Shown: one piece after another, positions 2,460 to 10,036 of the stretch
Layout of the letters: the number at the start of each line of letters is the position of its first letter
Numbering within the stretch: the stretch's first letter is position 1
IMG/VR virus record: IMGVR_UViG_3300043448_000247
Span: 1 to 34,660 of that record
DNA: 34,660 bases
Strand: one strand, 5' to 3'
Source of the DNA: a virus
Made by a program: the position numbers and the translations under genes
The notes under the pieces: model-generated
The model's input: the letters and a program-made list of their open reading frames with translations, nothing else
Database searches by the model: none
Told to the model about the DNA's origin: nothing

Positions 2460-4079
2460 TTAAATCACAGTCCAGACCGAGCCGCTTGGCACAGTCACAG
2501 TCACGCCGCCGTTGATAGTGATCGGCCCAAACGTGCCGGCGTTCTTGTTCGTGCTGATCGTGTAGTTGGTCGTCACAGTCTGATCGTTCTCGATGAACAC
2601 AGCATCAGCGCCGCCACCCGTAGCACCACCGCCAACCGCGCCCCAGGCGCTGCCGTTGTAGATCTCGGGCTTGCCAAGCGTGGTGTTAAAGCGCAGGAAA
2701 CCAGTAGCCGGCGAGCCATCTCGCTGTGCCGTCGTGCCCACAGGCAACTTGCCTGAACCTGTGTTGCTGGTCTTCTCAACCACCAGGGCCGGGTCAACTG
2801 ACACGAAGCCCCAGGCCGAGCCGTCGTACACCTTCACGCGGTTGGACACTGTGTTGAAGTACAGGTCGCCCGCCGTCAGGGCATTGCCGTCGTTGTCCAG
2901 CGTAGGGTCGCTAGAGAACGCGCCAAGGAAGATGTCGGTGAAGGAATCCAGCGCGGCCTCCGCAGCGGTCTGGGCCGTCTGCGCTGCCGTGGCGCTGGTG
3001 GCGGCATTCGACGCCGAGGTGCTGGCAGCAGACGCAGAGCTTGCAGCATTGCTGGCTGAAGTGCTGGCATTGCTGGCGCTGGTCGAAGCAGAACTTGCTG
3101 AGCTGGCCGCGTTGCTTGCAGAGGTGCTGGCAGAGCTGGCGCTGTTGCTGGCGTTCGTTGCCGAGGTAGCCGCTGCCGAGGCGCTGTTGCTGGCATTGGT
3201 GGCCTGGGTGCTGGCCGTGCTGGCAGACCCGGCAGCAGCCGTGGCAGATCCAGCAGCCGCCGTTGCAGAAGATGCTGCGTTGCTGGCCGATGTGCTGGCG
3301 TTCGATGCCTGGGTGCTGGCCGTCGAGGCAGAGCTGGCAGCGTTCGTGGCCGAGGTCGAGGCGTTGCTGGCGCTGGTGGCGGCAGCCGAGGCAGACGCAG
3401 CAGCAGCAGAAGCCGATGCGCCTGCGCTGGCGTTGTCCACGATCAGATCCCACTTGGCCGAGTCAGCGTTGCTGCTGATCGGCGTGGTGCCGCTCGAGGT
3501 GTGTGCGGTGTTGGCGTAGTAGACGTTGCCGTTGCTGGCGTCCTTGACGATGTCGCGCTTGTTGTACGCCACACCGGCGGCCCAGTTGCCGCGGTTGTCA
3601 CCGATCACCTCGCCGGTCACCGGGTTGCCGTTGCTGTCGAAGGCCAGCGTCTTGTTGGCCCGCACCGATGCGCGGGGCAGCGTCATGTTGATGCTGGTCG
3701 GATCGGTCTGCGGGGCCTTGAGCGCCCGGTCAACAGCCTCGGCGTTTTGCTGCGCGAAGATGGTCTGTTGATCCATTTCGTCGTTGACCGTGTTGGCGAA
3801 GAAATCGCCGCCGGTCACGAAGTCGGTGGTGCGCTGGATGGTGCGGTTGCCAACGATGGCGATCTGAGTTGCGCCAGTTGGCGTGGCCGTCAGCGTGACA
3901 TAGCCGGTGCCGTTGGCGTTGATGGTCACCGTGTAGTTGGTGGTCAGCGTCAACAGCGTATCGTCCCGGTAGACAGCGATGTCGGTCGCGGCCAGGATCT
4001 CGAAGGTGAAGTTGTACGGGCCGGTGCCGCTGGCAGCCAGCACAACCCGGCGAGGCACGTTGGAAATTGGGACGCCCAT
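2460..4079 (-). CDS. Tail fibre protein with T7 gp17-like N-terminal attachment domain
   Basis: A protein of 539 residues. Residues 1-150 resemble the T7 gp17 N-terminal domain that docks fibres on the tail (PYNFTFEILAATDIAVYRDD, then NRTIQRTTDFVTGGDF and DQQTIFAQQNAEAVDRAL). A short segment around 165-212 (GNWAAGVAYNKRDIVKD) looks like a carbohydrate-binding or fibre module. Residues 217-378 are a low-complexity Ala/Ser/Thr/Asn shaft. The C-terminal part carries two copies of a phrase of the LYFNT..NRVKVYDGSAWG type, common in fibre and collar proteins. It follows the ejection-protein genes by 33 bp, with an AAGGA site before ATG 4079. It is likely the primary fibre adaptor onto which the other fibre proteins are mounted. 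Confidence 0.88.
   Translation of the reverse strand: MGVPISNVPRRVVLAASGTGPYNFTFEILAATDIAVYRDDTLLTLTTNYTVTINANGTGYVTLTATPTGATQIAIVGNRTIQRTTDFVTGGDFFANTVNDEMDQQTIFAQQNAEAVDRALKAPQTDPTSINMTLPRASVRANKTLAFDSNGNPVTGEVIGDNRGNWAAGVAYNKRDIVKDASNGNVYYANTAHTSSGTTPISSNADSAKWDLIVDNASAGASASAAAASASAAATSASNASTSATNAASSASTASTQASNASTSASNAASSATAAAGSATAAAGSASTASTQATNASNSASAAATSATNASNSASSASTSASNAASSASSASTSASNASTSASNAASSASAASTSASNAATSATAAQTAQTAAEAALDSFTDIFLGAFSSDPTLDNDGNALTAGDLYFNTVSNRVKVYDGSAWGFVSVDPALVVEKTSNTGSGKLPVGTTAQRDGSPATGFLRFNTTLGKPEIYNGSAWGAVGGGATGGGADAVFIENDQTVTTNYTISTNKNAGTFGPITINGGVTVTVPSGSVWTVI
2946..3431 (-). repeat. Degenerate Ala/Ser/Asn/Thr repeat tract in fibre shaft
   Basis: Residues 217-378 of the fibre are almost entirely Ala, Ser, Thr, Asn and Gln, built from irregular units such as SASNAAS and STSASNA. 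At DNA level this is a tract of repeated 'gctggc'-type words on the plus strand. Such tracts form long helical or coiled fibre shafts. They may vary in length by slippage or recombination, and they create a long spurious open frame on the other strand. Confidence 0.85.
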
Positions 4080-4112: not shown

Positions 4113-7100
4113 TTAGCGCCCGTATGTGCGTGCGATCTCGCGGTTTCGTCGCATTGCCGCCGCAAGGTCTGGGAACTCCACAGCCGGCATGATTCCCTCG
4201 GGGTCGCCCACCATCTGTGCCTTGGCTGCACTGCGATATCGCTCCACGATGGCGGCGATCATCTTCTGCTTGTCGCCCTTGAGCAGGGGCTGGCCGGCGA
4301 CTAGGGCATCCTGCTCGGCAGCCGCCAGTTCAAACGGGATGGCCTGCTCGAGGTTCATGCCGTCCATCAGGATCTCCTGGCCGGCCAGGCGCTTGAAGCG
4401 GTTGATCTGCTGGGCCGACAGGCGCACCCCGTCCCAGGTTTCGCTGGCGCGGGGGATGCCGTAGTCCAGGGCCACCAGGACTTCGTCCACCTCCGACCGC
4501 TTGCCCTCGCGGGCCTGGATCACGGGCGACCAGTTGAGCCAGTTATCCAGCCCGCGGGTGTCCACCTTGACCTCGCGGCCCAGCTCGTCCAGCAGGGGCG
4601 GCACATCGGCAGACACGCCGGGGATGCGCGACATGATCCGCTGCTTGGTTTCGTAGAAGGCCCGCAGCCCCGCCGGCACATCCATCTCGGCGGCCTTGAC
4701 GTTCGACCGGGTGGGATCCACCAGGCGCTCGATGTGGCCCATCAGGGTCGAGTTGGTGAAGCCCACGCCAGGTGTGCCGGTATAGACGAAGTTCGTATAT
4801 TGGCGGGCCAGGCCGTCGAAGACCTGCACCAGCTTCTCGCCGGTGTCGGTACTGCGCGAGCGGGCGATGGACAGCAGCTCCCCGATAGCCTGCAGCATGG
4901 GCAGGTTGGCCATGTACTCGCCGGTGGCGGTCATGCCGGCCAGGGCCATGCGCTGCCAATCCTCCATCCCGGGGTGGCGGTCGAACTTGGCGGCATCAGC
5001 CATGTCAGCGCCCATTGCAAACACCATGCTGACAGGATCGAAGCGGGCGTAGCTGACGTAGATCTTGTCCGAGCCGACGCTGACCTTGGTGATGGCCCGC
5101 AGGCGCTCGATGTTCTCCTCGCTGATCTCGCCCTTGTCGAAGACCAGGGAGTACTTCTGCCAGCCCAGGCGCTCGAGGGCCTGGCGATCCTCGGTCTGCG
5201 ACGGGCCGCTGCCGGTCACCCGGTTGTCTAGCGCCAGCATGGCAGAGCCGGTGATGGCCGAGCCGCCCATGGACAGCCTGGCGATGGCCACATCACGGTG
5301 CCGGCCTCCCTTGCTCCACAGGTCGTAGAAGCGGGGGCTGACCGCGTTCAGCACGGGGATGTAGCTGCTGCCCTCGATGAACAGGTTGGTCACCGTCTTG
5401 GCGAACGGGACAATCATCTTGATCGGGGCCAGGTTCAGGATCTGGTTGCTCCAGTAGTAGGTTTCGCCTAGCACGCCCTGGCGGTCGATCTTGGTCTGCA
5501 GGGTCACCATGTCGCGCAGGGAATCGATGTTCTCCTGCATGGCGCGGGGGCGCTCGGTCAGCAGCTGGGCACCCTTGGCCTGCACCTCGGCGCGAGCTGC
5601 AGCCGGATCCATGCCGGCAGCGATCAGGCGGTCGTACTCCTTGTTGAGGTACGTCCAGGCCTCCTGGTGCAGCTGCATCCTGGCCACGATGCCGCCCACA
5701 AATTCGTCGGCAGCAGCGATGGGCCGGAAGCTCATAATGTCCTGCACGAAGCCCAGGCCCTCGATGGCGCGGCCCACCCAGCTGTCGCGCAGGTCGGGGG
5801 TGCGGTAGACCTCCCTGCCGAACAGCCGGATCGGGGTGTCGGACAGGTACTCGGCAGACAGCGGGTTCAGGGGCCTGTTGGTTTCGGTGAACTTGCTCTC
5901 GCCGCCCCTCTTGATGGCCTCCTTGGCCAGCTCCCAGCCGTCCAGCATCCCGTTCTTCAGGCCGCTCAGGGTGGCCATGATGTCGCCCATCTGGTAGCGG
6001 TCAGGGTCGGTGCCGGGGATGGCGGTGCGGATGCGACCGATGCCAGTAGCCAGCGCCCGCTCCAGGGGCTGCAGGGCACCGAAGACGCCGCTGCCAGCCA
6101 GGTTGTAGGCATGGGTAGCCGGGTCGTTGAGCAGGTGAGCCTGGAAGGTGTGGAACCAGATGTCCCTGATCTTTGCCCCCAGGCCGACCTCGATGAGGGC
6201 GTTCTTGCCCTTGCGGGTCGGGGTTTCTAGGTAGTCCACGGCCAGCTGGTACAGCACGCGGTCGGACTGATCGGCTCCCAGCTCGTCCAGGGCGGCGCGG
6301 ACATCGCGGGTGTCCAGGCCAGGCCCCTTGTCTTTCACGCGCTTGAAGACGTTCAGGGAGCGGGCCACATCGGTCTGGATGCCCTTGAGCTGCTCCACGA
6401 TGATCTTGTGCTGGGCCAGGGCCAGGCGCAGATCCAGCTTGCCCTGGTCGTCCAGGGTGCCGTCCTTCATCTTGGTGAACAGGTCATCCAGCTTCTTGGC
6501 GCTCTCGTCATGCACCACCACCGCGCCGGCCAGCTGCTTGGCCAGCTGGCTGCCGCCGACGGTGGCCTCCATGCTCTCGCCGGCCAGGGCGCGGTTGAGG
6601 AACTGCTCGGGCACGCCGGCGTTGATGGCCTGGGTGTAGATCGACCGCAGGGACATCGAGGGGGCCTGCTCTGCGAAGTTGTCGCCGGCAGCGCGGATGG
6701 TGGCGGCCAGGCCCTCGTTGTCAGTCCAGGCGCTGGAGATCGGGGTATCGGGCGGGGCGGCGCGGCCAGCACCGGCAGCCTCCAGCATGGCCCGCTCGGC
6801 AGCGATGTCGTTGACGGTTGTGATGTCCACCGGGCGCAGCGGTGGGGCTGCAGGCTTGACCGGGGCGGGTGCCTTGGGCGTAGTCACCGGGGCGATAGGC
6901 GTGGCACCAGCGGCAGCCGGGGGAGGGGCTACCTTGGTGACCTCGTCAACCAGCCTGGGTTTCTTGGCAGCGCGTGCGCCGCTCTTGGTCAGGCCTTCCA
7001 GCAGGCTCAGGCCGCCGCTCACAAGGCCGGCGACCTGGACTTCCTCGGGGAGTTCTTCTTGCGCGACGGCAGGCAGGCCAGGCTGCGGGGTGCCCTCTAT

Positions 7101-7175
7101 GCTTGGCTCCAGCTCCGGCTCAACCGGCGTGGACACCATGTCATTGAGGCGTTGCTCAAGCGGTGGGATGGCCAT
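4113..7175 (-). CDS. Large virion-associated/ejection protein with LPD38-like domain (1020 aa)
   Basis: The position after two other large internal proteins fits a T7 gp16-like ejection protein that enters the host with the DNA. The N-terminus (about 1-150) is Pro/Ala/Glu-rich and probably disordered. The central part has HTFQAHLLNDPATHAYNLAGS and SFRPIAAADEFVGGIVARM. The segment YVSYARFDPVSMVFAMGADMADA is typical of the 'large polyvalent protein associated' LPD38-type domain. Two hydrophobic helices occur around residues 570-640 (NLAPIKMIVPFAKTVTNLF and ARLSMGGSAITGSAMLAL). I chose ATG 7175 (TGATG overlap, AAAGGAG eight bases upstream) over the in-frame GTG at 7178. The family call is by motif memory, and function in DNA ejection is inferred. 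Confidence 0.8.
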   Translation of the reverse strand: MAIPPLEQRLNDMVSTPVEPELEPSIEGTPQPGLPAVAQEELPEEVQVAGLVSGGLSLLEGLTKSGARAAKKPRLVDEVTKVAPPPAAAGATPIAPVTTPKAPAPVKPAAPPLRPVDITTVNDIAAERAMLEAAGAGRAAPPDTPISSAWTDNEGLAATIRAAGDNFAEQAPSMSLRSIYTQAINAGVPEQFLNRALAGESMEATVGGSQLAKQLAGAVVVHDESAKKLDDLFTKMKDGTLDDQGKLDLRLALAQHKIIVEQLKGIQTDVARSLNVFKRVKDKGPGLDTRDVRAALDELGADQSDRVLYQLAVDYLETPTRKGKNALIEVGLGAKIRDIWFHTFQAHLLNDPATHAYNLAGSGVFGALQPLERALATGIGRIRTAIPGTDPDRYQMGDIMATLSGLKNGMLDGWELAKEAIKRGGESKFTETNRPLNPLSAEYLSDTPIRLFGREVYRTPDLRDSWVGRAIEGLGFVQDIMSFRPIAAADEFVGGIVARMQLHQEAWTYLNKEYDRLIAAGMDPAAARAEVQAKGAQLLTERPRAMQENIDSLRDMVTLQTKIDRQGVLGETYYWSNQILNLAPIKMIVPFAKTVTNLFIEGSSYIPVLNAVSPRFYDLWSKGGRHRDVAIARLSMGGSAITGSAMLALDNRVTGSGPSQTEDRQALERLGWQKYSLVFDKGEISEENIERLRAITKVSVGSDKIYVSYARFDPVSMVFAMGADMADAAKFDRHPGMEDWQRMALAGMTATGEYMANLPMLQAIGELLSIARSRSTDTGEKLVQVFDGLARQYTNFVYTGTPGVGFTNSTLMGHIERLVDPTRSNVKAAEMDVPAGLRAFYETKQRIMSRIPGVSADVPPLLDELGREVKVDTRGLDNWLNWSPVIQAREGKRSEVDEVLVALDYGIPRASETWDGVRLSAQQINRFKRLAGQEILMDGMNLEQAIPFELAAAEQDALVAGQPLLKGDKQKMIAAIVERYRSAAKAQMVGDPEGIMPAVEFPDLAAAMRRNREIARTYGR

Positions 7176-10036
7176 CACTTAGCTCCTTTCTGAGGAGCCG
7201 GACGGCCCCCGCTTACTTCTTGTCCTGCGAGGATTCCTGCTTGGCGACTGCGCCGGTCAGGTACAACTCTTGGAATGACTTGCCCGACTTCTCCGCTTGT
7301 ATTTGATTGCGGAGCGCCTGCACCAGGGGATCTTGCTCCCCCTTGCGCTTGATCAGCCTGTCCAACTGTTCTTGCAAGGTACTCATCGTAATCACTCCTA
7401 AAGAAGACCTTGGTGTCGTAATACACCAAGCGTGCATCAGACACATTGCCCTCTCTCATTATATCGCCAACAATATCTTGAAAGAGATCTTCTTTTTGCT
7501 GCATGGTTGCAGCCCGATTTGCGGCGTTGAATGAATCGTCAAACTCCGGGATGTATTGAAAACGAATGCCATTTAGTCCTGCTGTATCAGCGCCGCCAGA
7601 TCTAGCCTGGACATTGATGCGGTCGTTGAAGCGCATATCGGTCACATAGGTAAACCCGTCTACCCCGTACTGGCGCAGCTTCTCTGTCACCTTCTCCATC
7701 TGCTGGGGGGTGATCTTTTGCTTGAAGTAAATTTCGACACCTGGCCGAGCATTCGGGCTGGTTCCGTCTTTAAGCACCTTTGACATGAACACGGCATCCT
7801 GGTCATAGGCTTTTCCCTGCTCAACTAGCCGTCGCTCCAAAGGCGCGGGGTTGAAGTTTTGCCGGGTCACAAACTCGGCATTCAGCGCCCGCTCGGTCTG
7901 GGCCATGAATGATCCGTAGGTGTTGGCCAGGTTGTAGGTCACCACTGCGGGGTCGGCGCGGACCACATCATCCAGCTCTGCAGCCAGCTCGGCCTGGGCA
8001 TAGTTGCTCATCGGCCTGCCAGGCCGCTCGCCGGACACGCCCAAGCTGTAGCGCTCCACCGGGGCCTTCATTTCCTCGAGCTTCTGCTGGTTCTCGGCGC
8101 GAGTGGCCTCAAACCCTTCTCTTGCTTGTTGTACGCGCACACCGTACTGCGGCGGTCCAGTGAACCCGTCAGCCGCCTCGGCTTCATCCACTCGGCGCAT
8201 TGCCGGGGGCTTGAACCCCTGGTTGATCTCGCGGCGTGTTTCCTTGACGGCCATGGGATCTGCAGCCCCGGCGAACGACATCTCGAAGTCCAGCGAGCCG
8301 CCTTCGCCCGCCTTGGATGTCCAACCGTTATTCGTCCAGCGCTCCTTCTCGATGAACCAGGCCACGGCCTGAAGGTCATCGGGTCCAAGGTCTCCGATCT
8401 CGGGGGCGATGTTCTTTACGATGTTGCTGCTGTTGATGTCGCCAGCAGCCTGCCGGAACACATCCTGGCCGAACCCGAACTCGCTGCCGACCTTCGGGTC
8501 ATACAGGGTCGAGCCGACCAGGTGCTTACCTGCCACGCCTTTCTCGGCTGGGGGCGGGATGCGCGGCAGATCGGCCAGGCGGCGCAGCATCCGAGCGGCC
8601 CACACATCAATCGTTGCCTCGTTCGTCAGGCCGATCAAGTTGCCGGTAAAGTTGGGCGTCTTCGGGGAGTCGCCAGCCTTCACGGCGCGGAACATATCCA
8701 GCAGGGCGCCCATGGACGCGGGGCTATTTGCGTTGAAGAGCTGGCCGCTGGCCTTGGTGATCAGCGGGAACTCGCCGGTCTTGTGCAGCTCGGTGAGCGT
8801 CTTCGCGTCCACCGGCATGCCTTCCTTGATGCGCCGCTCAAACGCGGCCAGCTCGTTGTCATACTCACCGCGGGAGAATCGGCGCAGGATCTCGATGGCG
8901 TTGTCGAAGTTCTGCTCGACGCCGGTCTGCGCGGACGTAGTGCCCAGGACATCCGCAAAGGCATCACCGATGCCGCCGAACTCGGCACGCAGTCGGTCAC
9001 GCATCGAGCGATACCAGCTCGCCTGGCGCAGGATCTCAATCGCCGCGGCATCACCCGCAGCCGCACGGTTCACCACCTCCTGGACTTCGCCCACCAGCTT
9101 GGACGACAGCGCAGCCTGCCAGTCGGCCTTGCTCACGCCTTCAGGCGGGGTGTGGAAGTTGTAGGCGATCTTGGCAGGCTCGACCTCGGCCAGGGTCTCC
9201 TTGGCCTTGTTCTTCTTGAAGGTGATCTTGTTGGCTTCGATGGTCGCCCAGCCGTCGGCCTCCGGGTAGGAGGTGTGCATATCGCTGACCGCTTTGGTCG
9301 CCAGCTCTCGCTTGGCCGGGTTGCGTCCAGCGGAGTTGATCACCACGCTACGCTCATCCTTTGTAAGTGGAGGCGCTACGTTCGTCACCGAGCCAGGCGG
9401 TACCACGTTCATCGGGCGCACAGCCTGCGGGATGAGTCGAGCAGCAGGGCCGGTGCCTTGTGTCATGGCCTGGTCGATTGCCTGACCGACAGCTCTCGCG
9501 CCTGCCTTCACTCCCTTGACGCCAACATCAATCGCCCCAGGCAACGGGGCAAGTTCTCCGAATGCCTGGCCGACATTGGCGCTCTGCGTCCTGATCGCTT
9601 CGTTCCTTGAACCAGGCGGCGCGACGGGAGGAAGCTCAACCTGAACATCGGTAAAGGGAATGCGGAATCCCTCTTTGCTGATCTGTTCTGTGGTCGCCAT
9701 CCGGGTCTTTTCTTTCATGCCAGCCAGGAAGGCGTCGATACGACTCTGGTCTTCAGGACGGTTGAAGATGGAGCGCAGGCCACGGCCCAGCATCTCGATG
9801 TCGCCTGGCAGGCCCATCGTCTGGGCGACAGCACCACGCACAGTACCAGCGCCCATGTCAAACAGGGCCATGCCGGCGTCCGACATGGTGAGCTGACTGC
9901 CCCTGCCGCCACCTCGTCCACCCATGGCCAGTTGCACGCCGTCCATGCCGGCCTGCTCCTCGGGTGGCGGCGCGGCAGGGTAGTCGCGCTCCAGCGACCA
10001 ATCAATGAATGCGGAGTCGAAGTCTTTGGCGATCAT
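7175..10036 (-). CDS. Large internal/ejection protein (953 aa), polyvalent-protein-like
   Basis: The start ATG 10036 overlaps the upstream stop (ATGA). The N-terminal 200 residues are mixed, with Gly-rich loops and hydrophobic helices. The middle contains NFTGNLIGLTNEATIDVWAA, LVGSTLYDPKVGSEFGFGQD and LDFEMSFAGAADPM, recurrent in large uncharacterised phage virion proteins. The C-terminal third (from about residue 700, YSLGVSGERPGRPMSNYAQ) contains KQKITPQQMEKVTEKLRQYG and looks like a separate module encoded in A+T-richer DNA than the rest. The last ~60 codons overlap another frame (7213-7386) that has much better codon bias, so the true or ancestral C-terminus is uncertain. It is likely an ejected internal virion protein; no enzymatic motif is certain. 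Confidence 0.75.
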   Translation of the reverse strand: MIAKDFDSAFIDWSLERDYPAAPPPEEQAGMDGVQLAMGGRGGGRGSQLTMSDAGMALFDMGAGTVRGAVAQTMGLPGDIEMLGRGLRSIFNRPEDQSRIDAFLAGMKEKTRMATTEQISKEGFRIPFTDVQVELPPVAPPGSRNEAIRTQSANVGQAFGELAPLPGAIDVGVKGVKAGARAVGQAIDQAMTQGTGPAARLIPQAVRPMNVVPPGSVTNVAPPLTKDERSVVINSAGRNPAKRELATKAVSDMHTSYPEADGWATIEANKITFKKNKAKETLAEVEPAKIAYNFHTPPEGVSKADWQAALSSKLVGEVQEVVNRAAAGDAAAIEILRQASWYRSMRDRLRAEFGGIGDAFADVLGTTSAQTGVEQNFDNAIEILRRFSRGEYDNELAAFERRIKEGMPVDAKTLTELHKTGEFPLITKASGQLFNANSPASMGALLDMFRAVKAGDSPKTPNFTGNLIGLTNEATIDVWAARMLRRLADLPRIPPPAEKGVAGKHLVGSTLYDPKVGSEFGFGQDVFRQAAGDINSSNIVKNIAPEIGDLGPDDLQAVAWFIEKERWTNNGWTSKAGEGGSLDFEMSFAGAADPMAVKETRREINQGFKPPAMRRVDEAEAADGFTGPPQYGVRVQQAREGFEATRAENQQKLEEMKAPVERYSLGVSGERPGRPMSNYAQAELAAELDDVVRADPAVVTYNLANTYGSFMAQTERALNAEFVTRQNFNPAPLERRLVEQGKAYDQDAVFMSKVLKDGTSPNARPGVEIYFKQKITPQQMEKVTEKLRQYGVDGFTYVTDMRFNDRINVQARSGGADTAGLNGIRFQYIPEFDDSFNAANRAATMQQKEDLFQDIVGDIMREGNVSDARLVYYDTKVFFRSDYDEYLARTVGQADQAQGGARSPGAGAPQSNTSGEVGQVIPRVVPDRRSRQAGILAGQEVSGGRPAPQKGAK
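7213..7386 (-). CDS. Small out-of-frame gene overlapping the 3' end of the ejection-protein gene (57 aa)
   Basis: An ATG at 7386 is preceded by AGGAG eight bases upstream. It opens a +1-frame ORF (MSTLQEQLDRLIKRKGEQDP ... QESSQDKK) lying wholly within the 3' end of the 953-codon gene. It reads as a hydrophilic, helical small protein. By my count 44 of 57 codons end in G or C, like the rest of the genome, whereas the large frame over the same bases has only about a third. So selection appears to act on the small frame. It could be an independent accessory or scaffold-like peptide, or an alternative C-terminus reached by a +1 shift, since the frame is open back to 7446. Function unknown. Confidence 0.6.
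   Translation of the reverse strand: MSTLQEQLDRLIKRKGEQDPLVQALRNQIQAEKSGKSFQELYLTGAVAKQESSQDKK

Follow-up and report, generated by a model that had tools for sequence, protein, structure and literature searches.

The window, i.e. the whole virus contig of 34,660 bases that was analysed, carries what we consider, with a probability of about 82%, to be a genuine dual-coding locus: a 57-codon gene nested at the 3' end of a 953-codon gene for a putative ejection protein, which would have arisen by 3' extension of the large gene over its small neighbour. The minus-strand genes follow a T7-like order (head-tail connector, tail tubular proteins A and B, then proteins of 219, 582, 953, 57 and 1020 residues, and the tail fibre). 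The large gene sits between the tail tubular and fibre genes, where T7-like phages have ejection (internal virion) proteins, and the putative role of its product rests on this gene order; no sequence or fold homology to a known ejection protein was detected in phage records and solved structures. With respect to gp14/gp15/gp16 of T7-like phages (PMC8954989), the locus is similar in gene order and in the 1020-residue protein, which matches an internal virion protein family; it differs in the 953-residue protein, which has no detectable sequence relative in the same sources, and in the 57-residue gene placed between the ejection genes.

Table 1. Features of the window, in its own numbering, and overlap classes of the related loci (overlap: nucleotides by which the large-frame stop lies past the small-gene ATG).
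Feature	Position or loci	Strand	Description
Large gene	7175..10036	-	953 codons + TGA; place in the T7-like order suggests an ejection (internal virion) protein
C-terminal tail of large protein, probably overprinted	7178..7384	-	from about residue 885 to residue 953; disorder predicted
Shine-Dalgarno AGGAG of small gene	7395..7399	-	spelled by large-frame codons AGG AGT (Arg Ser)
Small nested gene	7213..7386	-	57 codons + TAA (7215-7213): MSTLQEQLDRLIKRKGEQDPLVQALRNQIQAEKSGKSFQELYLTGAVAKQESSQDKK
TGATG	7173..7177	-	large-gene stop TGA overlapping the ATG of the next gene (7175)
Downstream gene	4113..7175	-	1020 codons, the first being ATG 7175; matches internal virion protein family phrog_6651, E 3.5e-19
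Overlap 17 nt	L027, L028, L031		large protein ending DYDEYLR or DYDEYLK
Overlap 41-47 nt	L029, L030, L110-L113		
Overlap 101 nt	L097		
Overlap 143 nt	L095, L099, L101		
Overlap 173 nt	L100		
Overlap 185 nt	L092		
Overlap 206-212 nt	window clade		
Overlap 233 nt	L094		
Overlap 278-281 nt	L018, L025, L068, L073		
Overlap 527 and 587 nt	L074, L086		
Overlap 968-1025 nt	L016, L021-L023, L034, L069		
Overlap 1679-2267 nt	L077-L079, L091, L098		

Conservation of the small gene and its linkage to the large gene

All the loci compared come from metagenomic virus contigs. Viral contigs scanned with the large protein yielded 35 loci, and scans with alignments of the small protein enlarged the set, so that 62 loci, window included, were examined in detail together with four more. 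About 65 non-identical related contigs share the small gene at the same place and in the same frame, with protein identities of 27-89%, and the set contains 50 distinct small proteins. In the scan with the large protein, every locus reaching the 3' end of the large gene has the small gene (L036 ends before that point).

In 62/62 loci a homologue of the large protein is encoded upstream, and the offset of the small frame is constant. The downstream gene varies: it is of the window's ejection kind in 33 loci, of another family in 19, a terminase large subunit in four (in L027, Terminase_3 with E 1.2e-36) and of another kind in one. Since the linkage of the large and small genes is constant while the downstream gene changes, the two form a unit, and this suggests a joint function of the small protein and the large ejection protein. 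In the lineages with the shortest overlaps (L027:4018-5229, L028-L030), the terminase large subunit gene directly follows the small gene, its GTG overlapping the small-gene stop.

By tblastn, no relative of the small or of the large protein was found in named phages, nor was one found in GTDB genomes. The nearest named phage, as judged from tail tubular protein B, is Methylophilales phage MEP301, and the region of it that was searched contains no homologue of the small protein.

The small protein is predicted to form a helical hairpin (residues 4-15 and 20-34; mean pLDDT 72), followed by a short helix near a conserved QELYLTGxV motif and by a disordered end. It gave no match in Pfam, NCBIfam or solved structures and no reliable one in PHROGs, and structure searches with the small and large models returned nothing significant; family searches with either protein gave at most weak hits. 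A weak match of the small protein to phrog_7334 (E 0.0011) was rejected as a probable chance match between helical proteins: none of eight related phage records matched phrog_7334, yet 5 of 14 control genomes did, and a tblastn search gave weak matches to rudivirus structural proteins.

Start signal, codon use and selection on the small frame

The AGGAG, the ATG at 7386, the 57 codons and the +1 position within the 953-codon gene, all claimed in the first-pass annotation, were reproduced at the same coordinates. The small gene (7386..7213) lies entirely within 10036..7175, on the same strand and in a different frame, and a spacer of 8 nt separates AGGAG (7399-7395) from the ATG. In the window, the predicted duplex with the anti-Shine-Dalgarno sequence has an energy of -9.4 kcal/mol, a strength that none of the other internal ATGs tested in the large gene reaches. 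Over the loci the median is -8.4, as compared to -2.9 at 2,686 control ATGs in large genes; L095 and L016 have weak Shine-Dalgarno sequences.

The small ATG is embedded in the large-gene codons for an R-x-D-Y-D motif. The arginine is encoded by AGA or AGG in all 55 loci that have it (24% expected from the same genes) and the tyrosine by TAC in 58/58 (48% expected), L054 and L055 being left out of both counts. If the tyrosine that precedes the start (7386-7390 in the window, and at all loci) were encoded by TAT, a further ATG would arise 3 nt upstream; the exclusive use of TAC therefore suggests that the start spacing itself is selected. Every locus has a small-gene ATG. In L054 and L055 the canonical ATG is lost and the tyrosine codon is TAT, which provides a new in-frame ATG 3 nt upstream. 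The R-x-D-Y-D codons are chosen to form a Shine-Dalgarno sequence and an ATG, and the start of the small gene is under selection. An alternative start at ATG 7446 (77 codons) was rejected, as the upstream extension is not conserved: in L029, L031 and L013 the small frame closes within 6-13 codons in that direction.

Over the shared bases, 44/57 codons of the small frame end in G or C (GC3 0.77) as compared to 18/57 of the large frame (0.32), matching exactly the earlier count of 44 and agreeing with the estimate of roughly one third. Upstream in the large gene, none of 827 windows of 57 codons has a GC3 as low as 0.32. The comparison of substitution rates per frame in relatives, suggested as a check in the same annotation, points to constraint on the small frame. 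In the window clade, changes per site were 0.072 where they are nonsynonymous in both frames, 0.112 where silent in the large frame only and 0.296 where silent in the small frame only. The small-frame NN/SN is thus 0.24 (95% CI 0.15-0.38), substitutions falling mostly at sites that are silent in the small frame. The identity of the small protein exceeded that of the large-protein tail in 274/274 pairs (0.71 vs. 0.54). These data indicate strong purifying selection on the protein encoded in the small frame. The pattern that had been named as contrary to this claim, a conserved large C-terminus together with a broken small frame, was not found: relatives retain the small frame, and several end the large frame early. 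GC-rich DNA commonly has short open reading frames, and a chance frame with no product might be considered on this ground; it is refuted in practice by the conservation over about 65 loci, the selection and the start-signal data.

The earlier annotation had proposed that either two proteins are encoded or a shift between 7446 and 7386 carries the large protein over into the small frame. The first part is well supported, given the conserved start and Shine-Dalgarno sequence of the small gene, its conserved frame, and a large frame that is kept open and, in relatives, read into real domains (see below). The second part, programmed +1 frameshifting to give a large-small fusion, is very improbable. 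The window's small frame is open for 20 codons upstream of its ATG and the GC3 signal switches to the small frame near that ATG, as a shift would predict. However, the ATG is present in all loci, replaced 3 nt further upstream in L054 and L055, and is served by a strong Shine-Dalgarno sequence; the small frame is closed six codons upstream in L029 and L031; and there is neither a recognisable slip site nor any locus with large and small proteins in one frame. This also sets the small gene apart from the programmed frameshift of the tail chaperones gpG/gpGT, considering that it has its own conserved ATG and Shine-Dalgarno sequence and no slip site.

The large frame over and beyond the small gene

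The large gene of distant relatives ends where the probably overprinted tail of the window begins, and among the other loci the large-frame stop lies at increasing distances past the small ATG (Table 1); in L024 the large frame is open to the contig end, at 332 nt. The overlap classes cluster on a tree of the large-protein core, midpoint-rooted only and with long branches, where they require 5 changes as compared to 20.9 in shuffles. For most loci of the window clade, the large frame terminates at the start of the next gene or within a few nucleotides of it. The AlphaFold model of the large protein predicts a folded part to about residue 890, where the distant relatives stop, and residues 893-953 are predicted to be disordered (pLDDT under 50).

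Amino-acid constraint on the tail is weak. The large-frame NN/NS was 0.64-0.89, with intervals reaching 1 (window clade, 0.64; 0.40-1.00), a ratio that is not a clean one, as it sets first against second positions of the small codons. In one sequence alone the open large frame is unremarkable: when the small gene is recoded synonymously, the large frame stays open in 23% of cases. Its openness is significant only across the clade. A codon NNT before AA, AG or GA in the small gene would stop the large frame, and pyrimidine sites of this kind were counted. In the window clade T was found at 0/78 of the stop-making synonymous sites as compared to 108/235 elsewhere in the same genes, whereas lineages with an early stop showed no avoidance (19/61 vs. 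57/182). Since the read-through class is defined by being open, changes were also counted on the tree: no stop-making change was found where 7.0 were expected in the window clade (P about 9e-4) and where 12.4 were expected over all read-through loci (P about 4e-6). This tree count was used instead of a closest-pair version with too little power, whose P values were 0.05 in the window-type clade and 0.01 when pooled. These counts indicate that, in read-through lineages, the large frame over the small gene is kept open by selection.

Beyond the small gene, L094, L018, L025, L068 and L073 have a GG-containing large-frame C-terminal end soon after the small-gene stop (in L094, GGLVERVYNDNRTYK), and no large-frame start codon lies between the small ATG and this end. 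Similar ends (GGxV, then DNRxY) close the far longer tails of L016, L021-L023, L034, L069, L077, L078, L091 and L098. The extended frame contains an ART-PolyVal domain in L077 (E 4.9e-18) and a GNAT domain in L078 (1.6e-7). From these features, the large frame is judged to be read through the small gene in sister clades. The outer frame of the nested pair is thus selected or used over the overlap, as indicated by stop avoidance and by the ends and domains beyond.

A real small gene accompanied, in the window clade, by a neutral disordered tail that is tolerated as read-through with no selected function would fit the weak amino-acid constraint, the disorder and the odd codon use, and it has been argued that long 3'-extension overlaps do not need selection (PMC3887535). 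We consider it improbable, as stops are avoided where the small protein permits them (0 vs. 7.0 and 0 vs. 12.4), sister clades have conserved ends and domains beyond the small gene, and the large stop of the window clade falls nearly always at or within a few nucleotides of the next start.

Within one clade (L077:5003-6785, L078:5003-7132, L016:3667-4632, L024:7621-7948), differing domains follow the nested gene (ART-PolyVal, GNAT, ASCH-like, L5 gp82-like), and domain-bearing extensions mostly end in the common motif GGxV...DNRxY. The large-frame region past the nested gene is apparently a slot for swappable effector domains. In this respect the relatives resemble polyvalent proteins (PMC5512222), long virion-linked proteins with swappable C-terminal ART, GNAT or ASCH-like domains. 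They differ in that the linker joining the core to the added domains has a separate conserved gene encoded within it, and the window's own large protein has no such conflict-related domain.

Origin of the overlap and possible role of the small protein

The starting point would be an ordinary stop/start overlap, still present in distant relatives, in which the large protein ended in D-Y-D-E-Y-L-R/K and the stop of its gene lay 17 nt past the small ATG. Once this stop was lost, the large frame would run on in the alternative frame and add a disordered Gly/Ala/Pro/Arg tail. The stop newly acquired in the window clade would have come to lie on the next gene's start codon (TGATG/TAATG), an arrangement expected to couple the following ejection gene to the large gene in translation; the TGATG of the window is plausibly consistent with such coupling. 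In another clade the large frame would have run farther and acquired variable domains. The small protein would have a separate initiation on the shared mRNA, at a Shine-Dalgarno sequence and an ATG of its own that lie inside large-gene codons.

Most likely, then, the small gene is the older coding sequence over the shared bases and the large tail was overprinted after the stop was lost. The tail GC3 of 0.32 as compared to 0.77 in the small frame, together with a fold that ends at about residue 890, speaks for 3' extension as the direction, and stop-loss extension rather than truncation is the likely course. A long ancestral tail, shortened in the early-stop lineages, would be compatible with a tree that is midpoint-rooted only and has long branches, with the several changes in overlap length, and with the position of L095 (143 nt) next to the nested clade. 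This reverse course is unlikely, considering that the codon use of the tail is foreign and that of the small frame native, that the conserved fold does not reach beyond the early-stop position, and that early-stop loci keep no trace of large-frame stop avoidance.

Stop-codon loss is listed among the routes to overlapping genes (PMC2268670), and unidirectional overlaps by 3' elongation have been described in which the upstream stop is lost and replaced inside or beyond the next gene (PMC3887535). The present series agrees with the latter in the lost stop and in the position of the new one, and differs in that a whole gene is covered, with up to 2 kb beyond, and in that stop avoidance favours selection on the extended frame. 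For spanins, an i-spanin gene that loses its stop and extends past the o-spanin gene was considered one conceivable route to embedding, and the survey found no family combining embedded with overlapped or separated forms (PMC6139136). Like the embedded lambda Rz/Rz1 spanins, the small gene starts inside a larger phage gene and out of frame, and two-component spanins likewise include overlapped and embedded forms and a disordered alternative-frame segment. The proteins are unrelated, the small one having no Cys, lipoprotein signal or hydrophobic N-terminus, and the gene stands between ejection-type genes and not in a lysis cassette; unlike in spanins, one family has both overlapped and embedded forms. 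The origin of nested genes is usually argued from endpoints, whereas here one protein pair spans overlaps from 17 to 2267 nt, which makes the stop-loss route, envisioned and unseen in that survey, directly testable. Relatives preserve nearly every step of a large-gene stop moving over and past the small gene.

As to its role, the small helical-hairpin protein may, tentatively, serve the large ejection protein as a partner or assembly factor. A stronger version is rather doubtful: the small protein would be an obligatory partner, made inside the hinge where these phages plug interchangeable C-terminal effector domains. If so, the nested gene would mark a dedicated, reusable joint, keeping partner and cargo carrier inseparable in recombination and their synthesis balanced on one mRNA. 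The locus adds a conserved family of small phage proteins which, being nested, may well escape standard gene callers. Elsewhere in the window, the tail fibre protein (2460-4079, minus strand) contains a long Ala/Ser/Thr/Asn repeat stretch, with weak 42- and 21-base tandem repeats.
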